From Synechococcales cyanobacterium bin31.maxbin.ball.101 (GTDB taxonomy: Bacteria > Cyanobacteriota > Cyanobacteriia > Leptolyngbyales > Leptolyngbyaceae), in NCBI GenBank assembly GCA_013298165.1, contig JAAFJU010000004.1:1-64000 (forward strand): a stretch of DNA of 64,000 bases, read 5' to 3'. Both the position numbers and the translations under genes were made by a program. Under the pieces are notes generated by a model. That model made no database searches. It saw nothing but the letters and a program-made list of their open reading frames with translations, and had not been told where the DNA came from. Shown piece by piece: positions 51,115 through 62,397 of the stretch (position 1 is its first letter; each line of letters starts with the position of its first letter).

Positions 51115-54100
51115 TCATTCTTCATTCTCCACCGCGCCCAATGCCTTAAGAGTCGCGATCGTAGCGGGAGTTAAACCTTTGACCCCAGTGATGTTCATGC
51201 CTTCGTAGGGAAAGCTTTCTGTCAACACGACAACACATTTTCCAGAATTAAAATCCCATACTCTGATACTCATATCTCTGCCACTACTAATAATCTGCTT
51301 TGCATCCTGGTCAAAAACAATTGATTCTATAATGCTAGTATGACCTTCTAGCATCATTACACACTCGCCAGATTTAATATCCCAAATTCTTATCAACGAG
51401 TCATTGCCACCGCTGACAAGTACATCAAGACTAGGATGAAAAGTGATGCAGCGAATCCAATTATCAGATCCTTTCAATATTGAAATACATGTTTCAGAAT
51501 CCAAATCCCAAATCCTTATATTGCCTTCATAACCTCCAGTTGCTAAAATCTTTCCTGAACTGTGAAATGCCACCGATAAAAGTGGCTCTGAGCCTGATTT
51601 GAGAACACTTAAGCATCTACCATTATGTGTATCCCATACTCGAACTGTCCTGTCACTTCCACAACTTGCAATAGAAAGACTGTCAGGACTGAATTGAATT
51701 GATTTAATCCATCCAGTGTGACCTCGTAGATCTCTTACTAGTTGACCAGATAGAGTCCAAATTTTTATACTCATATCGTGATGAGCACTAGCAAATAAAT
51801 TACTGTCTGCGCTTATATCGACTGAATATACTGTGCTATTTACATTGATAACTTTACAGCATGTATAGTTGTTTAGATCCCAAATTCTCACTGTTTTATC
51901 ATAGCTGCCACTGACCATTTTCATCGCATCTTTAGTAATAGAAATTGAGTAGACTGATTGCTTATGACCAGGCATAATGCAGATTTTGTTCTTCTGATTT
52001 TTATCCCAAATTTTAATATCGCCATTATCATCACCACTAGCTATCAATGATGACTGAGAGTATGAAAAAACTGAGCGAATCCATGTGGAATTACCTTGAA
52101 ATATTGCTGCTGACTCAACAGATTCCATATTCCAAAATCGTAAAGACTTATCAAAACTGCCTGATGCGAAATCATTGCTTTCTGATATAAATTTAACTGC
52201 GTGAACAGTGCCAGTATGTCCTTCTAAGGTTGAAATACATTGCTTTGATAAGATGTTCCATATTTTCACTTTATTATCTTTACTTCCACTGACTAAAAAA
52301 TTTCCGTCATAGCTAAAATCGATAGAATATATCCAGTCACGATGTCCTTCTAAACAGCCAATTATGTTTCCATCTATATCGATCAGTTTAATATTATTAT
52401 AATCATCTATTGCGATCATACTATTGTCAGGACTAAGCGCTATGTGAGAAATTCTTCGCGAATTATAGTTGAAGTTTTTAGTGCATACTCCACTAGCAAG
52501 ATCCCATACTCTAACATGACCATCATCGGAACTGCTTACTAGAATCTTATTAGACTTACTAATTTGCATGGACCTAACTGTTGCAGTATGTCCCTTTAAT
52601 ATACTTAAATAAGATCCATCTCTTGAGTCCCAAATTACTATATCTCCGTTATGCCAAGAACTAATTATTGAGTTGTTTGAATTATTAAAGATGACACAGA
52701 AAGGTGTCATATAAAGGCTCTGAACAGATACCGAATAGGCGCTACTAAATTCACTGCCAAACTGATTCCACGATTGCATTGGAGAATCTGTTGGGAATTC
52801 TCTTTGAATGCTAAAACTTGTCTCCTCTTCGATATTCCAAATAATAATTCTCTTGTCATTACTTGCACTAGCTATTAGATTTCCATCTCCACTAAAATCT
52901 AGAGACCAAATTAAGTCAAGGTGCTCTTTTAAGACTAATTTTTCCTGGTTTTTCTGAGTATCCCAAAGCCTGATTGCACCATTTCCATCACCTGTTGCCA
53001 AGATATTCTTAGCCGATATAAATGCTAGTGAAAATATACTACTAAGACAAGTACTGAATCTACAATTTGAAAGAATTGCATTAGAGAAATTGGAATTTAT
53101 GAGTCTTGCATTTATAAAATCGCCTTCAACTATAACTGTCTTACTAAAGTCCTGGGACTCAAAATCAGTCTTATTTTTTGATAGTATACTGATGGCATTG
53201 CCCCCAACATACCGTACATTTTCTTTACTTTGATTTTTAGTCGTCCATATTACTTGGATTAGAGGGTTTTCTTTTGATTGTTCAAGAGGGCTGAGAAGGG
53301 ATACCAGTAGATCAATCACCGCCTTTGCTAAAACCTCCTTCCCAAAGCCCGATCGCAGCACCTCAAGCCCCTCCGTCACAAACCCCTTCAGCGGAGCAAC
53401 AGCCCCACCCCCAAAGTACTCCGACCACGTATAATCCCGAGGCTCCAAGGACCGATCGATCCCCGACTTCATCTGTGCCAACTCCAGAAAATCAGGAGCC
53501 AACGCCCCCAGCTCCGCCGCAAACTTAAACGCCACAAAAAACTCCAAAAGCGATCGATGCGCAGGCGTATAATCCCCATCCGAATTGCGAATGAGCATCG
53601 TCTGACCCATCATGTCGTAATGCCAATGGTCCAGATCCTTCTCCTCCTGCACCGCCGACCCAAACAACGTGCGAATCCGATCGGGAAACTCCCGATAATT
53701 GAGGCTCATGCGATCGTTCGACAACATTTCCCACGACAACTCACAGAGGAAATACAACTTATCTGCCATCGACGTAAACGTCCGCTCCGCCTTAATATCC
53801 CGCTCCATCTTGCGCTTCACCGCATACAAATACACCCGCGACATATCCACAGGTTTCCCCGCCTCAATATCCGGCAACGCCTCCAAAATTAACTCCGTCA
53901 TCACAGGACGCCGTGCCAAATCCAGAAGCTGCGGATTCCCCATCACCTGCTCCACCGTTTCCGATGACGATGCCAATAGCAATACCTCTCGGATTTGCGC
54001 ATCGTCAAACTTCTCAAGTTCTAACACCTCAAACTGCGGCGTCTCTCCTGATAACCCTCGCGTTGACGCTTGCAATTCCGCATTGAGGAGCGATCGACCT

Positions 54101-55608
54101 TCCTTCGCATCGGGAAAGTGTTCCGTCCGACAGGTCAAGATCACCTTAGAACCCGGCACCACCACCTTCGCCAGCTCCCAGAAATTATTAATCATCTGCT
54201 GCTTATCGACCCGTGCCGCCATCTCATCAAAGCCATCAAAAATCAGCAATAACTTACCCATCCGATTCAGCTCCTCAAATGCCGAATACCCCGGAATCGG
54301 AATCTCATGCTTGCGAAAAAAGAACTCCGAAAACAACGACTCCACACTCACCGCCTTCGCATAATCCCGCAGCGGAATCACGATCGGCAACCTCGGACGC
54401 TCGACACCATTCGCTTTCGCCGATCGATACTTCGACACTGCGATCGACGCATAATGCAACGCCAACCAAGTCTTGCCCGTCCCAAACTCCCCCAAAATCG
54501 ACAAATGCTCCTTCGCCGGATCATCCAGCCACAGGTCAATATAGCCCTCCGTCCAGCCATCCCCTTCCCCATACCGACTCATCCCCAACCGCTGATGCGA
54601 AACCGGGTCAAACTCCTCCTTCATACAAGCCAACGGCACATACCGCGCCTCAATTCCCCGCGTCGCAATCTCCGCCTCCAACCAATCCAAATACCCCTCA
54701 AAATCCGCATCCTGATCCAAAAACTCATCAAACGTAAAACAATACAAATCCCCATTCTCCGCTTTCTCCACCTCCGATCGCGCCGCCTTACTAATTCGCC
54801 GCGCCGTCACCAACCATCCCTCATCCACCCGCTGCGCTCCCACCGATTCCCGCAACCCCATGACATCCCGCACCCCCGCCTCCCCCGCAATCCCCCGCAC
54901 AAGAACGCGATCGAACCCCCGACGCTTCGGAATCTCAATCACCCACTCAAAATAATCCGTCTCCCACTTTTCCGTCTTCTCCAACCGATACCCCAACACC
55001 TCAAACCACGATCGCATCCGAAGCGCCAACTCCCCCGCTCGACACCCCGCCGTTGCTAACGCCAGCGTTTCCCCCGATTCGATCGCAGCATTTCCGTTCC
55101 CTGTTAACGCCGGATGATTCGCAATGGCTTCTAACTGGTCAGCAATCTGTTTCACATTGCGATCGACCCGCGATAACTTTTGCGCTTCCAGAATTTCTTT
55201 AGGCGTCTGCGATCGTTTCGCCATCTTCAAAAACGCCGCCGCAAACTCCACCAACTCCCGCTGAACGTCGCCACCCGCCTCCACCACCCGCGCCTCTAGC
55301 CCCTCCTGCCGAACATAAGCCCCAGCCTGCGTCAACCAACCCTGCGGATCATTCCCATCAAAACACTGCCGAAACCCTTGCCGAATCTCCGCCGATCGAA
55401 AAATCTCCAAACAAATCGCAGGCTTTTCAATGCCATACTCTACGATCGCATAGGCATAAATCCCCTCAAAATCCTCCGGTGGATGTTCCGGATCCAGCCC
55501 CACCTGCTTCAGCACCCGAATCACATGCTCATTCCGCTTCAGCTTATCCGTAACAAACGGAGAACCCGCCAACGCCTGAATAGCCTGAAGAAAAAGAGCG
55601 ATCGCCAT
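51115..55608 (-). CDS. NACHT NTPase with C-terminal WD40 repeats (STAND protein)
   Basis: 1497 residues. Residues 1-170 are a helical N-terminal region. About 195-290 has a restriction-endonuclease-like pattern (RMRSWFEVLGYRLEKTEKWE, VLVRGIAGEAGVRDVMGLRE) whose catalytic Lys position seems lost. NACHT core: Walker A GEFGTGKTW (about 375-383), Walker B LLLIFDGFDEMAA, then ILTCRTEHF. After a helical arm and a few pentapeptide-like repeats come about 14 WD40 repeats (about 855-1480; units such as DNKVKIWN, DKTVRIWD, DRTVRVWD), enough for two seven-bladed propellers. Likely a regulated sensor ATPase, plausibly anti-phage given the hsd genes 74 bases upstream. DNA for residues after about 770 is AT-rich and lacks GATCG. 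No effector is certain. Confidence 0.88.
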   Translation of the reverse strand: MAIALFLQAIQALAGSPFVTDKLKRNEHVIRVLKQVGLDPEHPPEDFEGIYAYAIVEYGIEKPAICLEIFRSAEIRQGFRQCFDGNDPQGWLTQAGAYVRQEGLEARVVEAGGDVQRELVEFAAAFLKMAKRSQTPKEILEAQKLSRVDRNVKQIADQLEAIANHPALTGNGNAAIESGETLALATAGCRAGELALRMRSWFEVLGYRLEKTEKWETDYFEWVIEIPKRRGFDRVLVRGIAGEAGVRDVMGLRESVGAQRVDEGWLVTARRISKAARSEVEKAENGDLYCFTFDEFLDQDADFEGYLDWLEAEIATRGIEARYVPLACMKEEFDPVSHQRLGMSRYGEGDGWTEGYIDLWLDDPAKEHLSILGEFGTGKTWLALHYASIAVSKYRSAKANGVERPRLPIVIPLRDYAKAVSVESLFSEFFFRKHEIPIPGYSAFEELNRMGKLLLIFDGFDEMAARVDKQQMINNFWELAKVVVPGSKVILTCRTEHFPDAKEGRSLLNAELQASTRGLSGETPQFEVLELEKFDDAQIREVLLLASSSETVEQVMGNPQLLDLARRPVMTELILEALPDIEAGKPVDMSRVYLYAVKRKMERDIKAERTFTSMADKLYFLCELSWEMLSNDRMSLNYREFPDRIRTLFGSAVQEEKDLDHWHYDMMGQTMLIRNSDGDYTPAHRSLLEFFVAFKFAAELGALAPDFLELAQMKSGIDRSLEPRDYTWSEYFGGGAVAPLKGFVTEGLEVLRSGFGKEVLAKAVIDLLVSLLSPLEQSKENPLIQVIWTTKNQSKENVRYVGGNAISILSKNKTDFESQDFSKTVIVEGDFINARLINSNFSNAILSNCRFSTCLSSIFSLAFISAKNILATGDGNGAIRLWDTQKNQEKLVLKEHLDLIWSLDFSGDGNLIASASNDKRIIIWNIEEETSFSIQREFPTDSPMQSWNQFGSEFSSAYSVSVQSLYMTPFCVIFNNSNNSIISSWHNGDIVIWDSRDGSYLSILKGHTATVRSMQISKSNKILVSSSDDGHVRVWDLASGVCTKNFNYNSRRISHIALSPDNSMIAIDDYNNIKLIDIDGNIIGCLEGHRDWIYSIDFSYDGNFLVSGSKDNKVKIWNILSKQCISTLEGHTGTVHAVKFISESNDFASGSFDKSLRFWNMESVESAAIFQGNSTWIRSVFSYSQSSLIASGDDNGDIKIWDKNQKNKICIMPGHKQSVYSISITKDAMKMVSGSYDKTVRIWDLNNYTCCKVINVNSTVYSVDISADSNLFASAHHDMSIKIWTLSGQLVRDLRGHTGWIKSIQFSPDSLSIASCGSDRTVRVWDTHNGRCLSVLKSGSEPLLSVAFHSSGKILATGGYEGNIRIWDLDSETCISILKGSDNWIRCITFHPSLDVLVSGGNDSLIRIWDIKSGECVMMLEGHTSIIESIVFDQDAKQIISSGRDMSIRVWDFNSGKCVVVLTESFPYEGMNITGVKGLTPATIATLKALGAVENEE

Positions 55609-55682: not shown

Positions 55683-58004
55683 CTAAGCCGCCATAGACTG
55701 CGAATATAAATGCTGTTGAAAGTCAGTAAAGACGGTGCGGATCTGGACAACGCTTCCTAATTCGGCAACGGCATCTCGAATATCGTCATATTTTAGGGTT
55801 AAAAGCTGAGGGAGCTTATCTTGGTCGAGTTCTTCAACGCCTTCTTTTACATATTGATCGAGAACGAAGTCTAGGAATTCTTGCTGTTTGCCAAAATACT
55901 TGGAAAAAATGAGTGGCTTAAAGGCGGTAACTCGATCGGTGCGGCTTATGGGTTCGGTGGCATAGGCGATATAGGTCAACACGTCATAAAGGTCACTTTT
56001 TTCGGCATTGATCAGACGGCTGATTTCGGTGAGTTGGTCTTTGCCGTAGCCTTTTTCTGCTAGTCCTTCCAACAAGGCTTTGCGGGTGTCAGGACGGCTC
56101 CAGAGCGATCGCAATTCGGCTTCATTTTTAAACAGTTCAGGGATTTCGCCGAAGAGTCGCTCGATGAATTCGACGGCAGAGAGTGGCTTTCCGTCAGGAC
56201 TCCAAAAACTTGTGGTTATGCGAGATTCGAGATGACGATCGGTACCATCAGCGAGTTTGATTTTGATGATGGGGGGACGAGTGGATTCGGATGGGGATGT
56301 TGGGGATGTTGGGGTGTAGGGGGCTTGGGGTTCGCGGGCACGATCGCTCACAGGTGTGGGGTCTTGAGGTTCGCCGTCCCATTCGGGGTCGTTGAAGTGT
56401 TCGTAGGCTTTCACGAAGTCGTAGATCGTGAAGTAGTCTTTGCCGTCAAAGAGTCGAGTTCCGCGACCGATGATTTGTTTGAATTCGATCATGGAGTTAA
56501 TGGGACGCATTAGCACGATATTTCGGACGTTGCGGGCATCGACTCCGGTGGAAAGTTTTTGGGAGGTGGTGAGGATGGTGGGAATGCTTTTCTCGTTGTC
56601 TTGGAAAGTTTTGAGAAATTGTTCGCCGAGTTTGCCGTCGTTGGCGGTGACGCGGACGCAGTAGTTGGGATGGGTGCTGATTTTGGTTTGGTTGATTAGG
56701 TTGCGGACGGCGAGGGCGTGAGGTTGGTTGGCGCAGAAGACGATCGTTTTTTGGGTTTGATCGATCGCTTCCATAAAAAGCTGGACTCGATAGCGTTCTC
56801 GTTCTTCGATTTCGATGATGCGATTAAAGTCTTTCTCAGTGTATATTTTTTCTTCGTTTACCATTCCTTCTAGCATTTCGTCTTCGGGGCTGTAGGTATA
56901 CTCGTCCAGGTTGGTTTCTATTTGGCGGACTTTGAAGGGGGTGAGGTAGCCGTCGTTGATGCCGGATTTGAGGGCGTAGGTGTAGACGGGTTCGCCGAAG
57001 TAGGCGTAGGTGTCGGCGTTGTTTTCCCGTTTTGGGGTGGCGGTGAGACCGAGTTGGACGGCTGGGGCGAAGTATTCGAGGATGCTGCGCCAAGTGCTTT
57101 CGTCGGTGGCTCCGCCGCGATGGCATTCGTCGATGATGATGAAGTCGAAGAAGGTGGGCGGATAGTCGAAGAATTTTGGAGCGGGGTTTCCGGCTTCGTC
57201 TTTTCCGGTCATGAAGGTTTGGAAGATGGTGAAGAAGATGTTGCCGTTTTTGGGGACGCGACCTTTTTTGCGGATTTCGTCGGGATCGATGCGGACAAGG
57301 GCGTCGTCGGGGAAGGCGGAGAAGGCGTTGTAGGCTTGGTTGGCGAGGATGTTACGATCGGCCAAAAATAGGATTCGAGGCTGACGTGTTGCGGTGGGGC
57401 TGAGGTTCCAGCGGCTTTGGAAGAGTTTCCAAGCGAGTTGGAAGGCGATGAAGGTTTTGCCTGTGCCTGTGGCCATGGTGAGGAGGATGCGAGTTTGGCC
57501 ACAGCAGATCGCTTCGAGGACGTGTTTGATGGCGTTGTGTTGGTAGTAGCGGGCTTCCCAGGTGCCGCTGCGATCTTCAAAGGGGATGGCGGCGAAACGA
57601 TCGCGCCAGAGATTTTCTTGGCTGAAGGTGAGGTGCCAGAGTTCGTCGGGGGTGGGGTATCGATCGATGTAGCCTTCGACTCCGGTTTGCATGTCGATCT
57701 GGTAGATGCGGCGTCCGTTGGTGGAGTAGGCGAAGCGGGTTTCGAGTTTTTCGGCGTAGTTTTTGGCTTGGGCGACGCCTTCGGTGTCGGGGAGGTCTCG
57801 TTTTTTGGCTTCGATGACGGCGAGTTTTTCGCCTTTGTAGACGAGGACGTAGTCGGCAAATTCTGAGGTGGCGCGTTTGCCAGAACCGAGGAGGCGACCG
57901 GGGGCAATGACTTCGCGACGAATCCTGCTGTGTTCAACGGTGCCCCAGCCTGTGGCTTTGAGGGCGGGGTCGATGAGTTCTGCGCGGGTTTCGGCTTCGT
58001 TCAT
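55683..58004 (-). CDS. hsdR: Type I restriction endonuclease R subunit (EcoEI-type)
   Basis: 773 residues. N-terminal nuclease: D51 (ADYVLVYKG) and E65-x-K67 (VIEAKKRD). Helicase/translocase motor: MATGTGKT (K183), DECH (292-295), TATPKR and QIIGRGTRLFDG (motif VI). The C-terminal part binds the methylase core. The protein is intact. On the minus strand hsdM, DUF1016, hsdS and the repeat pair precede it, so hsdR is separated from hsdS by about 570 bases and may have its own promoter there. ATG at 58004. Confidence 0.94.
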   Translation of the reverse strand: MNEAETRAELIDPALKATGWGTVEHSRIRREVIAPGRLLGSGKRATSEFADYVLVYKGEKLAVIEAKKRDLPDTEGVAQAKNYAEKLETRFAYSTNGRRIYQIDMQTGVEGYIDRYPTPDELWHLTFSQENLWRDRFAAIPFEDRSGTWEARYYQHNAIKHVLEAICCGQTRILLTMATGTGKTFIAFQLAWKLFQSRWNLSPTATRQPRILFLADRNILANQAYNAFSAFPDDALVRIDPDEIRKKGRVPKNGNIFFTIFQTFMTGKDEAGNPAPKFFDYPPTFFDFIIIDECHRGGATDESTWRSILEYFAPAVQLGLTATPKRENNADTYAYFGEPVYTYALKSGINDGYLTPFKVRQIETNLDEYTYSPEDEMLEGMVNEEKIYTEKDFNRIIEIEERERYRVQLFMEAIDQTQKTIVFCANQPHALAVRNLINQTKISTHPNYCVRVTANDGKLGEQFLKTFQDNEKSIPTILTTSQKLSTGVDARNVRNIVLMRPINSMIEFKQIIGRGTRLFDGKDYFTIYDFVKAYEHFNDPEWDGEPQDPTPVSDRAREPQAPYTPTSPTSPSESTRPPIIKIKLADGTDRHLESRITTSFWSPDGKPLSAVEFIERLFGEIPELFKNEAELRSLWSRPDTRKALLEGLAEKGYGKDQLTEISRLINAEKSDLYDVLTYIAYATEPISRTDRVTAFKPLIFSKYFGKQQEFLDFVLDQYVKEGVEELDQDKLPQLLTLKYDDIRDAVAELGSVVQIRTVFTDFQQHLYSQSMAA

Positions 58005-58150
58005 GGGGCGCTGGACTCAGTATGTTGGGAGGTGGGAATGTATCTATTGTAATGGTCTACGCAGTGTGTGGACCGATTTCAGCTTGAAAAGTTGCCTGTA
58101 GAAGTATTAATTCACCTATGATTTTCATTGAGTTAAATCAATGAACTAGT

Positions 58151-58328
58151 TTTACGTTTAAGCACTTTTTTGCTTGTTCTATAAGGGTTTCAGGTTTTTA
58201 GAGGTGGCTATACGGTTTTGCGTTTAAGCACTTTTTGATGGATTGATGACTTTTGTCGGTGTCCATCTCAATTGCGCACACAGTGTATGCGCAATGGCTA
58301 GAGTCAGGTTGTGGGCAATAAAATTCGG
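58151..58328. repeat. Structured direct repeat, unit 1
   Basis: Unit of 178 bases with boxes TTTACGTTTAAGCACTTTTT (58151) and TTTGCGTTTAAGCACTTTTT (58217), 66 bases apart, then a 25-base inverted repeat at 58271-58295 (ATTGCGCA..TGCGCAAT; 11 of 12 pairs). Between the boxes is ATAAGGGTTTCAG. No protein coding seen. Lies in the 572-base gap between hsdS and hsdR. Confidence 0.8.
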
Positions 58329-58480
58329 TTTGCGTTAAAGCACTTTTTTGTAGTTTCCATAAGGGTTTCAGCTTTTCAAGGCTGGCTACATGGGTTTGCG
58401 TTAAAGAACTTTTTGATGACTTGATGGGCGATCGACTCAATTGTGAACACACTGTGTTCACAATTGCTGGATCTAGCTTG
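58329..58480. repeat. Structured direct repeat, unit 2
   Basis: Boxes TTTGCGTTAAAGCACTTTTT (58329) and TTTGCGTTAAAGAACTTTTT (58395) are again 66 bases apart, with CATAAGGGTTTCAGC between, then a perfect 29-base inverted repeat at 58438-58466 (14-bp arms CAATTGTGAACACA). Two arm positions differ from unit 1, and both partners change so pairing is kept. Confidence 0.82.
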
Positions 58481-58576
58481 AGCATTAGTTTATTGGAGAT
58501 GCATCCAGGTTAATCGTCTCCGAAGTGCAGAGACAATCTGTGAATTCGGCAAGATTTTGCAAAATTGAGGCTTTGC

Positions 58577-59848
58577 TCATGGGGTCTCTTGGTCAGCGGT
58601 GAGTTCTCCGGTAAAGGCTTTTTGGAGGATGGATTGTTTGAGTTCGGTGAGGGCGGCGAGTTTTTGGCGGTAGATGGCTTCGAGTCGTTGGGTTTCCGAA
58701 TAAATTTCATTTAGACTTGAGACAATTTGCACTTGATCTTCAAGCTTTTTAGGAATAGGAAGAATGAAATTGACCAGGGTTTTAATTGGCAATTGAGGCT
58801 GTGCTGCACCAGATGTAAATCTTTTAATTTGCGATTTCATAATAGATGATCGCATTAGTTCAAACAGGTATTCCGACTTAAGAATACTCTCATTCGGCCT
58901 TAGAATTAGCATTCCAGAATTAATCCGAATGTGATCAAATTCAACACTATCATCATAAATAGCAATATTGCCGATTGTTCCTCGCGTTGTCAAAAGGACA
59001 TCTCTTCGGTTAAGCTTACCTTTACGAAGCTGATCATCCTTATCTTTTGAAATAAACATCGTAGTATCAAAATTAAAACCATCTGGCCTCACATTTTTTG
59101 TATTCAAGAATAGACAATGACCTTCAACAAGGAAATCCGATTGTTGAGGATAGTTTTTCCCTCTATCCCCATCAATGATTTGTATGATTTGAGTGTCACC
59201 CATTTTTTTTTCATCCCGATCGCCCTTCTGAGTAAAGATCGCATTCAGATAGCTTTCAAAGAGTTCGCGGGCGTTGGCGAGGTTCTGTTTGGTGTTTTCG
59301 ATCGCAACATCGATCGCCTCAAACGCCTGGTCTACGATCGATACAATCCGCTTCTGTTCATCGATCGGGGGAACTGGAATTATGAAATCAACTAATGTCT
59401 TAATTGGTAATTGAGGTTGCGCCGCACCTGATGTATGTCTAACAATCTGCGATTTAATGATCGGCGATAGAAGTATCTTAAATAAGAAATCTGAAGCGAT
59501 TGTACGCTCGTTAGGACGCAAAATCAGCATTCCAGAATTAATTCGAATATGATCAAATTCGACACTATCGTCGTAGATAGCGATATTTCCAATTGTACCT
59601 CTTGTTGTAAGAATAACATCTCGTCGATTCAGTTTTCCTTTACGAAGATGTTCATCTTTCTCCTTATTAATGAACATCAATACATCAAAATTAAACCCAT
59701 CTGGCCTAACATTTTTCGTGTTCAAGAAAATGCAGTGCCCTTCAGATGTGAAATCAGATTGCTGAGGGTAGTTTTTACCTCTATCACCATCAATGATTTG
59801 CATAAGGTCAGGATCGCCAAACTTCTTCTCTATCCAATTTTCTCTCAT
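58577..59848 (-). CDS. hsdS: Type I restriction specificity subunit with two near-identical TRDs
   Basis: 423 residues, DNA-recognition subunit. TRD1 is about residues 17-160 and TRD2 about 223-366; both read QIIDGDRGKNYPQQSDF, FLNTKNVRPDGFNF, RKGKLNRRDV, LTTRGTIGNIAIYDDSVEFD and SGAAQPQLPIKTLV. By hand about 115 of 142 positions are identical. The central conserved helix (IDEQKRIVSIVDQAFEAIDV) and the C-terminal one (YRQKLAALTELKQSILQKAF) are normal. ATG at 59848 with GGAGG six bases upstream, supplied by the duplicated hsdM tail. The gene is more AT-rich than its surroundings. Confidence 0.94.
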   Translation of the reverse strand: MRENWIEKKFGDPDLMQIIDGDRGKNYPQQSDFTSEGHCIFLNTKNVRPDGFNFDVLMFINKEKDEHLRKGKLNRRDVILTTRGTIGNIAIYDDSVEFDHIRINSGMLILRPNERTIASDFLFKILLSPIIKSQIVRHTSGAAQPQLPIKTLVDFIIPVPPIDEQKRIVSIVDQAFEAIDVAIENTKQNLANARELFESYLNAIFTQKGDRDEKKMGDTQIIQIIDGDRGKNYPQQSDFLVEGHCLFLNTKNVRPDGFNFDTTMFISKDKDDQLRKGKLNRRDVLLTTRGTIGNIAIYDDSVEFDHIRINSGMLILRPNESILKSEYLFELMRSSIMKSQIKRFTSGAAQPQLPIKTLVNFILPIPKKLEDQVQIVSSLNEIYSETQRLEAIYRQKLAALTELKQSILQKAFTGELTADQETP

Positions 59849-59918
59849 AACAGCCCTCCAATCTTTATCCCAATCTCTACACTCTCCGTATCCAACAGCC
59901 CATTCAATCTATTCATCA
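59843..59918 (-). repeat. Duplicated hsdM 3' tail in front of hsdS
   Basis: On the minus strand the bases between the DUF1016 stop and the hsdS ATG match the last 70 or so bases of hsdM: TTGGATACGGAGAGTG here, TTGGATGCGGAGAGTG in hsdM; ATTGGAGGGCTGTTATGAG here, ATTGGAGGTCTGTTGTGAG in hsdM. In translation LLDTESVEIG..IGGLL is the counterpart of LLDAESAKIL..IGGLL. Confidence 0.85.
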
Positions 59919-60949
59919 TCAACCTCTCGATCGGCCCAAAGCTGCAACCGTTCCGCGATCGCCTCAGGACTCGGCAACTCATCCCGATAAGCCTCCGGTA
60001 ACTGCGGCACAATCGTATAAGTCGCCACCCCGATCGGTCGAGAAGCCGATCGCAACGCATATTCCACTACAGTCTTGTTTTTCGATCGACAGATGATGAT
60101 GCCGATCGGGGGATTCTCGCCCTCCATTCTCTCTTGACAATCCAACGCCTCCAGATAAAACTCCATCTTGCCCTTGTGTTCTGGCTTGAAGTCACCGATT
60201 TTTAGCTCGATCGCCACCAAACAACGCAACCGTCGATGAAACAAGAGCAAATCGATGAAATATTCTTGTCCACCGACTTCCAGCCGATATTGATGATCGA
60301 TAAAGGCATAGGCACCACCCATCTCAGAGAGGAACGATCGGACATTCTTGACCAATGCCTGTTCTAAATCATGCTCTGAATGTTCATCTGCCAAATCTAA
60401 GAAATCAAAGGTGTAATGATCTTTAACCGCAAGTAACGCTTGATTCTTGATCTTCTCTGAAACTGTCTCATCAAAATTCGTCTGATTTAGCAAATACCTT
60501 TCGTAGCTCTTGTTATCCACCTGATGCTGAAGCACCGCCTTCGTCCAACCAAACCGCGCCGTTGCCCTGAGGTAGAATTCTCGCTCCAAATCGTCCTTAC
60601 AGCGCCCAAAGATGATCAGATTTTTGGTCCAGCTAATTTCTGCAACCAGTGGTTGCAGTTTTGGGCAAGTCGCGTAGCTACAGTAGAATTCCCGCATATT
60701 CCATAGGTTTCTGACCGAAAAGCCATTGCGCCCAGGGAACTCTGCTTGTAAATCTCTCGCCAATGTCTCCACCACCGACTTGCCCCAGCCGAGCGCCGTC
60801 TGTTTCTGGTGAATCATCTCCCCGATCGCCCAATACAGTCCCACTAGTTCACGATTGACACTTCGCATCGCCTGAAGCTGCCGATCGCGAATCTGCTGCT
60901 TAATCTCACGGAGAAAATTGGCATAATCTTGCGGATTCATCTCACTCAC
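59909..60949 (-). CDS. DUF1016/YhcG-family PD-(D/E)XK nuclease
   Basis: 346 residues. N-terminal helical DUF1016_N (INREL-like VNRELVGLYWAIGEMIHQKQ; GFSVRNLWNMREFY) and a C-terminal PDDEXK domain: YFIDLLLFHRRLRCLVAIEL followed by KIGDF, giving D and E-x-K. Often linked with type I restriction loci; role unproven, possibly a nuclease or accessory defence factor. GTG start at 60949 overlaps the hsdM stop by four bases and has GGAGG six bases upstream. Its stop merges with a duplicate of the hsdM tail. Confidence 0.9.
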   Translation of the reverse strand: MSEMNPQDYANFLREIKQQIRDRQLQAMRSVNRELVGLYWAIGEMIHQKQTALGWGKSVVETLARDLQAEFPGRNGFSVRNLWNMREFYCSYATCPKLQPLVAEISWTKNLIIFGRCKDDLEREFYLRATARFGWTKAVLQHQVDNKSYERYLLNQTNFDETVSEKIKNQALLAVKDHYTFDFLDLADEHSEHDLEQALVKNVRSFLSEMGGAYAFIDHQYRLEVGGQEYFIDLLLFHRRLRCLVAIELKIGDFKPEHKGKMEFYLEALDCQERMEGENPPIGIIICRSKNKTVVEYALRSASRPIGVATYTIVPQLPEAYRDELPSPEAIAERLQLWADREVDDE

Positions 60950-62397
60950 AACAGACCTCCAATACCTTCCAAAATTTTCGCACTCTCCGCATCCAAAAGC
61001 GCGATCGCATTCATAATCTCGATCGGCGATCGCAGCGCCACGTCCTCAGCTTTATTTGGATTCTTCACCGACAAATCAAATGACTCCCGATCGATATCAT
61101 TCACATCCACCAACCAAGACTTCTCCGACACCGCAAACGTCGCCTGCAATTCCACAAACTCCCGCAAATCCTCATCATTTAGCGCATTCGTCTTCCCCAT
61201 ATTCCGCCCCGGATCAAGCTGGTAATACCAAATCTTCCGAGTCGCCTCCCCCTTCCCGAAAAACAAAACAACCGTCTTCACCCCCGCCCCAATAAACGTC
61301 CCACTCGGACAATCCAAAATCGTATGTAAATTACAATGCTCCAACAACTCCTGCCGCAACGCCCGAGACGCATTATCCGAATTGGATAAAAACGTATTCT
61401 TAATCACCACCGCCGCCGTCCCACCCGCCTTCAAAATCTTAATAAAATGCTGCAAAAACAGAAACGCCGTCTCCCCCGTCTTAATCGGGAAATTCTGCTG
61501 CACCTCTTTGCGCTCCTTCCCCCCAAACGGCGGATTCGCCAAAATCACCTCGAACCGATGCTTCTCCTGAATATCATTCAAACTCTCGGAGAGCGTATTC
61601 GTATGAATAATATTCGGTGCATCAATCCCATGCAAAATCATATTCATAATCGCAATCACATAGGCAAGACTCTTCTTCTCCTTCCCCACAAAAGTCCCCG
61701 TCTGCAACTGTTGTAACTGCTTCGTCGTCAGATTCCCCCGCCGCAAATAATCATAACTCTCACACAAAAATCCCGCCGACCCACAAGCCCCATCATAAAT
61801 CCGATCGCCAATCCTCGGCTTCACCACCTCAATCATCGCCCGAATCAGAGGACGCGGCGTGTAATACTCACCCCCATTGCGTCCCGCATTCCCCATATTC
61901 TTGATCTTCGCCTCATACAGATGCGATAGCTCATGCTTCTCCTGCTGCGATCGGAACGTCAACTCATCAATATATTCCAACGCATCACGCAGACTATACC
62001 CACTCTGAAAGCGATTCTTAATCTCGCTAAAAATCTCACCAATCTTATACTCGATCGTATCCGGACTCGTCGCCCGCTGCTTAAACCCCTGAAGATAGGG
62101 AAATAGCTGACCATTCACATACTCGATCAAATCCGTTCCAGTCAGCGAATTCTCCTCATCCAACTTGCCATCCGCCGTCTTCGGAGCCGCCCACACCGTC
62201 CACCGATGCGCCTCATCAATAATAAACTCGTATGGCTTCCCGACCAACTCCGCCTCGATCGCCCGCTCCTGCTCCAAATCATCCAGATACTTCAAAAACA
62301 ACAGCCACGACGTTTGCTCGGTATAATCCAGCTCCGTCGTACAGCCCGCCTCCTTCCAGAGTACGTCATCAATATTTTTGAACGTTTGCTCGAACAT
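60946..62397 (-). CDS. hsdM: Type I restriction-modification DNA methyltransferase
   Basis: 483 residues. SAM-binding GACGSAGF (203-210) and the adenine methylase motif NPPF (288-291). The N-terminal helical domain starts FEQTFKNIDDVLWKEAGCTT and includes the GGEYYTPRPLIRAMIE entry to the catalytic domain. Forms the M2S methylase with HsdS and the complete restriction enzyme with HsdR. First gene of the minus-strand operon. ATG at 62397. The 202 bases to the porin gene hold only the porin terminator. Confidence 0.95.
   Translation of the reverse strand: MFEQTFKNIDDVLWKEAGCTTELDYTEQTSWLLFLKYLDDLEQERAIEAELVGKPYEFIIDEAHRWTVWAAPKTADGKLDEENSLTGTDLIEYVNGQLFPYLQGFKQRATSPDTIEYKIGEIFSEIKNRFQSGYSLRDALEYIDELTFRSQQEKHELSHLYEAKIKNMGNAGRNGGEYYTPRPLIRAMIEVVKPRIGDRIYDGACGSAGFLCESYDYLRRGNLTTKQLQQLQTGTFVGKEKKSLAYVIAIMNMILHGIDAPNIIHTNTLSESLNDIQEKHRFEVILANPPFGGKERKEVQQNFPIKTGETAFLFLQHFIKILKAGGTAAVVIKNTFLSNSDNASRALRQELLEHCNLHTILDCPSGTFIGAGVKTVVLFFGKGEATRKIWYYQLDPGRNMGKTNALNDEDLREFVELQATFAVSEKSWLVDVNDIDRESFDLSVKNPNKAEDVALRSPIEIMNAIALLDAESAKILEGIGGLL

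Follow-up and report, generated by a model that had tools for sequence, protein, structure and literature searches.

Orphaned 3′ boxes of a Schlafen-type gene and copies of an intragenic YhcG palindrome lie between hsdS and hsdR of a cyanobacterial type I restriction-modification operon

REP palindromes accompany RAYT genes, which encode Y1 HUH transposases, and carry gene-specific arms beside their gene. The palindromes of DUF1016/YhcG genes described here are similar in that they lie beside a cognate nuclease gene and have arms specific to it: copies near one gene share 7.2 of 9 arm positions, compared to 5.1 of 9 between loci (0 of 2000 label shuffles). In contrast to REP/RAYT pairs, YhcG is a PD-(D/E)XK protein (Pfam YhcG_C; EndoMS/NucS-like fold) and no Y1 HUH transposase, its palindrome is located inside the coding sequence, and many dispersed intergenic copies are lacking (median 3 and at most 6 places per genome in E. 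coli). In systems of the PrrC/RloC type, the gene of an accessory RNase is found between hsdS and hsdR. The slot in the type I restriction-modification (RM) operon is the same here, but the gene is Schlafen-type, and we know of no counterpart of the Schlafen boxes in PrrC/RloC-type systems. Rickettsia palindromic elements are protein-coding, about 100–150 nt long, and inserted in many genes and intergenic regions (PMC4316617). YhcG palindromes likewise lie in frame within coding sequence; unlike those elements, they are short (about 29 bp) and confined to a single position in a single family, in which they recur across phyla. Further, Schlafen-HATPase-wHTH proteins are presented in PMC12839542 as backup or accessory effectors of BREX-related systems. 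Their domain architecture is that of the box-linked Schlafen protein, which is also accessory to a defence operon; the latter often occurs with type I RM and is joined by a 3′ box element, of which we are not aware of any mention there.

The window, i.e. the whole stretch of 64,000 nucleotides that was analysed, contains a type I RM operon with the order hsdM, YhcG, hsdS, gap, and hsdR, followed by a NACHT-WD40 gene (Pfam and ORF reading; Table 1). The gap of 572 bp between hsdS and hsdR holds orphaned pieces of two accessory defence genes that are found elsewhere in this slot. That these parts are Schlafen 3′ boxes on the one hand and YhcG palindromes and fragments on the other is very likely; they differ in kind, and neither is a control element specific for hsdR. 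The boxes alternate twice with the YhcG pieces. The first-pass annotation placed the elements at 58151–58480; they are real, but extend over about 58047–58564 and read on the minus strand, which is the operon direction. Its two 178-base units with boxes 66 bases apart are confirmed as a diverged direct repeat (58144–58248 and 58322–58426; 105 nt, 79% identical, start-to-start distance 178). In relatives, the hsdS-hsdR slot contains either a Schlafen gene (e.g. locus L060; in genome G013 one adjoins hsdR) or a YhcG gene (G092, L133), and the window remnants are best read as marks of an accessory-gene hotspot between hsdS and hsdR.

Two further features of the operon were observed. HsdS is built of two near-identical halves, each with IIDGDRGKNYPQQSDF..LNTKNVRPDGFNFD; thus, both recognition domains are probably alike and the expected target is a palindromic bipartite site. 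The gene directly downstream of hsdR (51115–55608) encodes a NACHT protein that also has NNH5 and inactive restriction-endonuclease domains as well as an extended WD40 region; it probably belongs to the same defence cluster.

Table 1. Positions of operon genes, Schlafen-type boxes, palindromes, and YhcG fragments in the window.
Feature	Position	Strand	Evidence
hsdR, EcoAI-type restriction subunit	55683..58004	-	NCBIfam NF046051, E 3e-251; Pfam
P5, decayed palindrome/YhcG-like fragment VHTLRRPLQ, weak	58047..58073	-	placed as intact palindrome upstream of hsdR in G013
Schlafen-type box A1, one change at near-invariant position	58151..58167	-	box comparison
Schlafen-type box A2, intact, 66 bp from A1	58217..58233	-	box pattern scan
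YhcG coding fragment IAHTLCAQLRWTPTKVI	58245..58295	-	tblastn, E 3e-4
P1, 11/12 pairs (58271-58295)	58269..58297	-	YhcG-only covariance model, 32.4 bits, E 6e-7
Schlafen-type box B1, intact	58329..58345	-	box pattern scan
Schlafen-type box B2, one change at near-invariant position, 66 bp from B1	58395..58411	-	box comparison
YhcG coding fragment IVNTVCSQLSRSPIKS	58417..58464	-	tblastn, E 0.003-0.01
P2, 14/14 pairs	58438..58466	-	YhcG-only covariance model, 36.3 bits, E 4e-8
YhcG coding fragment FCKILPNSQIVSALRRRLTWMHLQ	58493..58564	-	tblastn, E 2.5e-7
P3, inside YhcG fragment FCKILPNSQIVSALRRRLTWMHLQ	58511..58539	-	YhcG-only covariance model, 25.8 bits, E 9e-5
hsdS	58577..59848	-	Pfam PF01420
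Intact YhcG, DUF1016_N + YhcG_C PD-(D/E)XK nuclease	59909..60949	-	Pfam
Intragenic palindrome of intact YhcG, training sequence of the covariance model	60635..60663	-	34.3 bits
hsdM	60946..62397	-	Pfam

The boxes are four AAGTGYTTWANNGCAAA-like copies on the minus strand, arranged in two pairs with 66 bp spacing. A search of relatives with the gap DNA returned homologues in four genomes (G013, G063, G081, and G009), and in each of them the box pair abuts the stop codon of a Schlafen-type gene. The encoded protein of about 472 aa contains Pfam SLFN_AlbA_2 and HATPase_c_4, and its predicted fold matches DIP2311 and the N-terminal domains of Schlafen 11/13/14. All of 20 diverse members retain E16 and E21 of the Schlafen motif. 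Scanning species genomes yielded 80 Schlafen loci, spread over cyanobacteria, proteobacteria, Geobacter, Desulfovibrio, planctomycetes, and others; in most of them, AAGTGYTTWANNGCAAA-like boxes follow the gene immediately on its 3′ side, as a rule two or more and up to eight in tandem. A clear pair is present in 61 of the 80 loci, with a spacing of 66 in 54, 67 in five, and 65 in two; when distances from 26 to 129 are allowed, 66 is the best partner distance in 53 of these 61. The spacer is largely unconserved except for a moderately conserved AAA and a TA-rich stretch. Box pairs with at most two mismatches occur in 11 of 386 genomes of the phylum, compared to none for the reversed-pattern control.

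The Schlafen gene has RM genes beside it in 38 of the 71 loci with enough sequence, and hsdR lies downstream in 35 of 71; in these type I RM operons, about half of the loci, the order is hsdS-Schlafen-boxes-hsdR. Since the box pair travels with Schlafen whether or not hsdR follows, it is a 3′ element of the Schlafen gene and not of hsdR. The window's own genome contains no homologue of this Schlafen family, and no such gene precedes the window boxes, which are therefore orphans. Moreover, an alignment of 58033–58235 to the Schlafen-hsdR junction of G013 reaches about 70%. Judged from this alignment and the missing homologue, the Schlafen gene has most likely been lost here; a search for a Schlafen pseudogene in the hsdS-hsdR gap gave no significant match. 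Of 159 boxes elsewhere, just 3 and 1 are altered at the positions at which two of the window's four boxes are changed, which fits decay of the latter two.

Several box loci deserve mention on their own account. L126 (G272:C38:18101-18183) has a box pair 66 bp apart and no Schlafen gene in the 3 kb examined, and is possibly a second orphan pair. L105 (991-1140) shows an expansion of the box, with four tandem copies of about 19 nt preceding the 66-nt partner box. In L048, L070, L086, L116 (Pseudanabaena), L093, L117, and L015, the Schlafen cassette is flanked by directly duplicated neighbouring sequence of about 45–130 nt; this sequence is the 3′ end of ileS in Pseudanabaena and the 5′ end of hsdR in L093 and L117, and in G009 it is a gene-tail remnant. 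These duplications suggest an unusual insertion mechanism for the cassette. One pattern match, L123, was dropped because it lies inside a repetitive coding region.

The boxes could be bound by the Schlafen protein itself, either as a 66-nt decoy or antitoxin RNA or as the operator of its C-terminal domain, a credible reading to which we give somewhat less than even weight. In type III toxin-antitoxin systems, a repeat RNA neutralises its cognate RNase. The position of the boxes next to that gene, the exact spacing, the long arrays, and the variant bases often shared by copies within a locus argue for it. The RNA version is opposed by the lack of conserved structure: only 3 bp per box are common to the box unit, and the single-sequence z is about -0.8. 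Nor did Rfam searches of the gap region and the box arrays return a relevant family or any match at gathering score, so that the small RNA proposed in the first-pass annotation finds no support. A coding function was considered, as the 66-bp step is divisible by 3 and some arrays form open frames, and rejected, as the boxes keep no constant frame with respect to the Schlafen stop and stop codons occur in some variants.

The second group of elements, the palindromes, leads to the YhcG genes. P1 and P2 pair exactly as claimed before. A covariance model built from YhcG genes only, instead of from the two repeat units as proposed originally, and with the window gap sequences left out, finds P1, P2, and additionally P3, which the earlier count of two had missed. 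Detected by a model built without them, the three are not chance. P5 is not detected by the model. In minus-strand orientation, P2 has the sequence ATTGTGAACACAGTGTGTTCACAAT and P1 the sequence ATTGCGCATACACTGTGTGCGCAAT; they differ at two arm positions at which the partner is changed as well, as claimed, and at a third position on one side only. P1 to P3 align in frame with YhcG, within the same part of DUF1016_N (tblastn, minus strand). The window palindromes are copies of the palindrome inside DUF1016/YhcG genes, here with short gene remnants. A palindrome search of 115 relatives gave matches inside YhcG genes and others just upstream of hsdR. In G013, G085, and G461, the hsdR-upstream copies have no YhcG flanks; thus, they may be mobile palindromes, which counts against their being gene remnants.

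YhcG genes carry a palindrome of 25–29 bp with gene-specific arms at one fixed codon position across phyla. At one aligned position in 38 cyanobacterial DUF1016 genes, 9.4 of 12 pairs form, compared to 5.25 after codon shuffling; this excess of 4.17 pairs contrasts with a standard deviation over positions of 0.26. Five of the 38 genes were first met by similarity to palindromes and the others via protein or family searches, and this codon-null test is less biased than the covariation alignment. The same test reveals no such position in Schlafen, hsdR, hsdS, or hsdM genes (peaks 0.9–1.5). Protein similarity was used to pick 14 yhcG genes of other phyla, from plasmid records and E. coli only; the motif palindrome is best or tied best in 13 of these, and nine are individually significant against codon shuffles. 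In 51 of 53 genes, the palindrome is centred at the same codon phase. The encoded residues, however, vary widely (IVTAVLSQL, ITTALRTQL, KVSPLVRQL, IFQTLSGKF, IWQTLSAKS), and the palindrome is therefore no by-product of the protein sequence. Its fixed position in several phyla bears out the first-pass view that covariation reflects a maintained structure.

In the confidently predicted N-terminal part of the protein, the palindrome segment encodes helix 96–103, between helices 79–93 and 107–116; this predicted three-helix unit would have helix-turn-helix spacing. The fold of the C-terminal domain resembles EndoMS/NucS nucleases. PADLOC lists YhcG relatives as candidate defence proteins only. The window's own 5.4-Mb genome (G000) contains thirteen DUF1016_N matches, most of them with a palindrome of different arm sequence. 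We found no earlier description of the DUF1016/YhcG palindrome in the open-access literature and one RNA library, although it may be known elsewhere, and none in the open-access literature of both arms changing together inside yhcG coding sequence.

The arms change in concert. In an alignment of 40 distinct palindromes, which were selected for at least 8 pairs so that the paired percentage is inflated, 131 pair cells differ from the commonest pair on both sides and 9 on one side, while shuffles of the same set give 39 two-sided cells. Within yhcG of E. coli K-12, three palindromes follow one another at 39-nt intervals, and a fourth lies 14 nt beyond the stop codon. This noncoding 3′ copy reads TGC...GCA in 396 genomes and TCC...GGA in 251, with the same central base and, in one examined pair, identical flanks. 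Each of the four one-sided forms occurs 0 times in 5,426 complete genomes.

Moreover, the palindrome is best read as copying and rearranging together with the yhcG gene. Copies near one gene resemble each other in their arms, as stated above; those of Rickettsiales and G068 have no arms in common within the locus, which counts against it. Palindromes mark the start or the end of deletions in E. coli strains (L236, L239), and in L238 (1057-1480) and L239 (977-1400) yhcG breaks off exactly where palindrome 3 ends on the right, to be followed by foreign sequence. This sequence contains a small gene annotated as transposase, which it did not resemble. K-12 has a further copy after gltD, at the edge of a gltF-yhcF stretch absent from the other strains examined. 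The REP-like unit suggested earlier is apt insofar as the additional copies have the same arms as the yhcG gene beside them, but a genome holds few of them. A high-copy REP was rejected for the window's own genome as well, where the copies lie mostly inside YhcG genes. In a Rhodocyclaceae type I operon (L064:4614-4768), three palindromes lie in a row between a gene of unknown function and hsdS, the first two spaced by 39 nt like those in E. coli yhcG.

As a whole, orphaned Schlafen and YhcG pieces combined with a DNA palindrome that YhcG may recognise is the explanation we favour, and we regard it as rather probable. In this scheme, the palindrome would act as double-stranded DNA, and each YhcG would bind, and perhaps cut, its own palindrome via the helix-turn-helix-like N-terminal region; a dimeric binder with variable half-sites would account for gene-specific arms. 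Cutting or hairpin formation at the palindrome could copy one arm onto the other, giving two-sided changes without intermediates, and could seed extra copies, tandem copies, and deletions. Schlafen and YhcG genes would be lost from the hotspot while boxes and palindromes stay behind. Recognition of its own palindrome by YhcG is, taken singly, possible, though we lean against it; concerted copying of the arms by replication or repair stands at even chances. Both can be true.

In quasi-palindrome correction, template switching in a hairpin copies one arm onto the other. Accordingly, a weak palindrome forced by the protein (motif I-V-x-x-x-x-x-Q-L) might be kept perfect by hairpin template switching, with no binding partner involved. 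This would explain the two-sided changes without intermediates, noncoding DNA included, as well as the deletions and tandem copies at palindromes. Yet it leaves unexplained one fixed position in one family across phyla and none in four other families, and extra 3′ copies with the same arms as the gene. A mutational origin is thus a serious rival for the arm changes and not for the fixed position, and as a complete account we consider it rather unlikely.

Less probable still, with only a slim chance, is an mRNA hairpin that controls YhcG translation or decay, with the orphan copies doing likewise for hsdR. The covariance model does score the coding strand higher for P1 and P3, and the hairpins are stable by inspection. 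However, mismatches at pair positions 2–12 are of the A-C type rather than the G-T type by about 19 to 8, and GU intermediates are rare; moreover, one copy sits after the E. coli yhcG stop. The lack of any preference for G-T type mismatches points to duplex or cruciform DNA and away from an mRNA hairpin.

The control role first suggested, a dedicated element holding back hsdR expression until methylation is in place, is very improbable, since boxes and palindromes occur with their own genes, Schlafen and YhcG, where no hsdR follows, and two of the four window boxes have lost near-invariant bases, even though the elements sit between hsdS and hsdR and boxes precede hsdR in about half of the Schlafen loci.

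A fixed palindrome whose arms change together despite amino-acid change is strong evidence for a DNA-level signal laid over coding sequence. YhcG proteins are common and barely characterised, and the palindrome provides a ready-made candidate substrate for each of them, while the Schlafen box pair provides a second, independent candidate target for a widespread defence-protein family. The E. coli alleles without intermediates allow the question to be asked whether selection or template switching is behind the concerted arm change. Tentatively, and with the odds against it, DUF1016/YhcG may be a family of self-addressed nuclease genes, in which the codons of the DNA-binding-like region hold the product's own candidate recognition palindrome. 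If so, site and protein would change as a unit, and the palindrome would copy itself around the gene.
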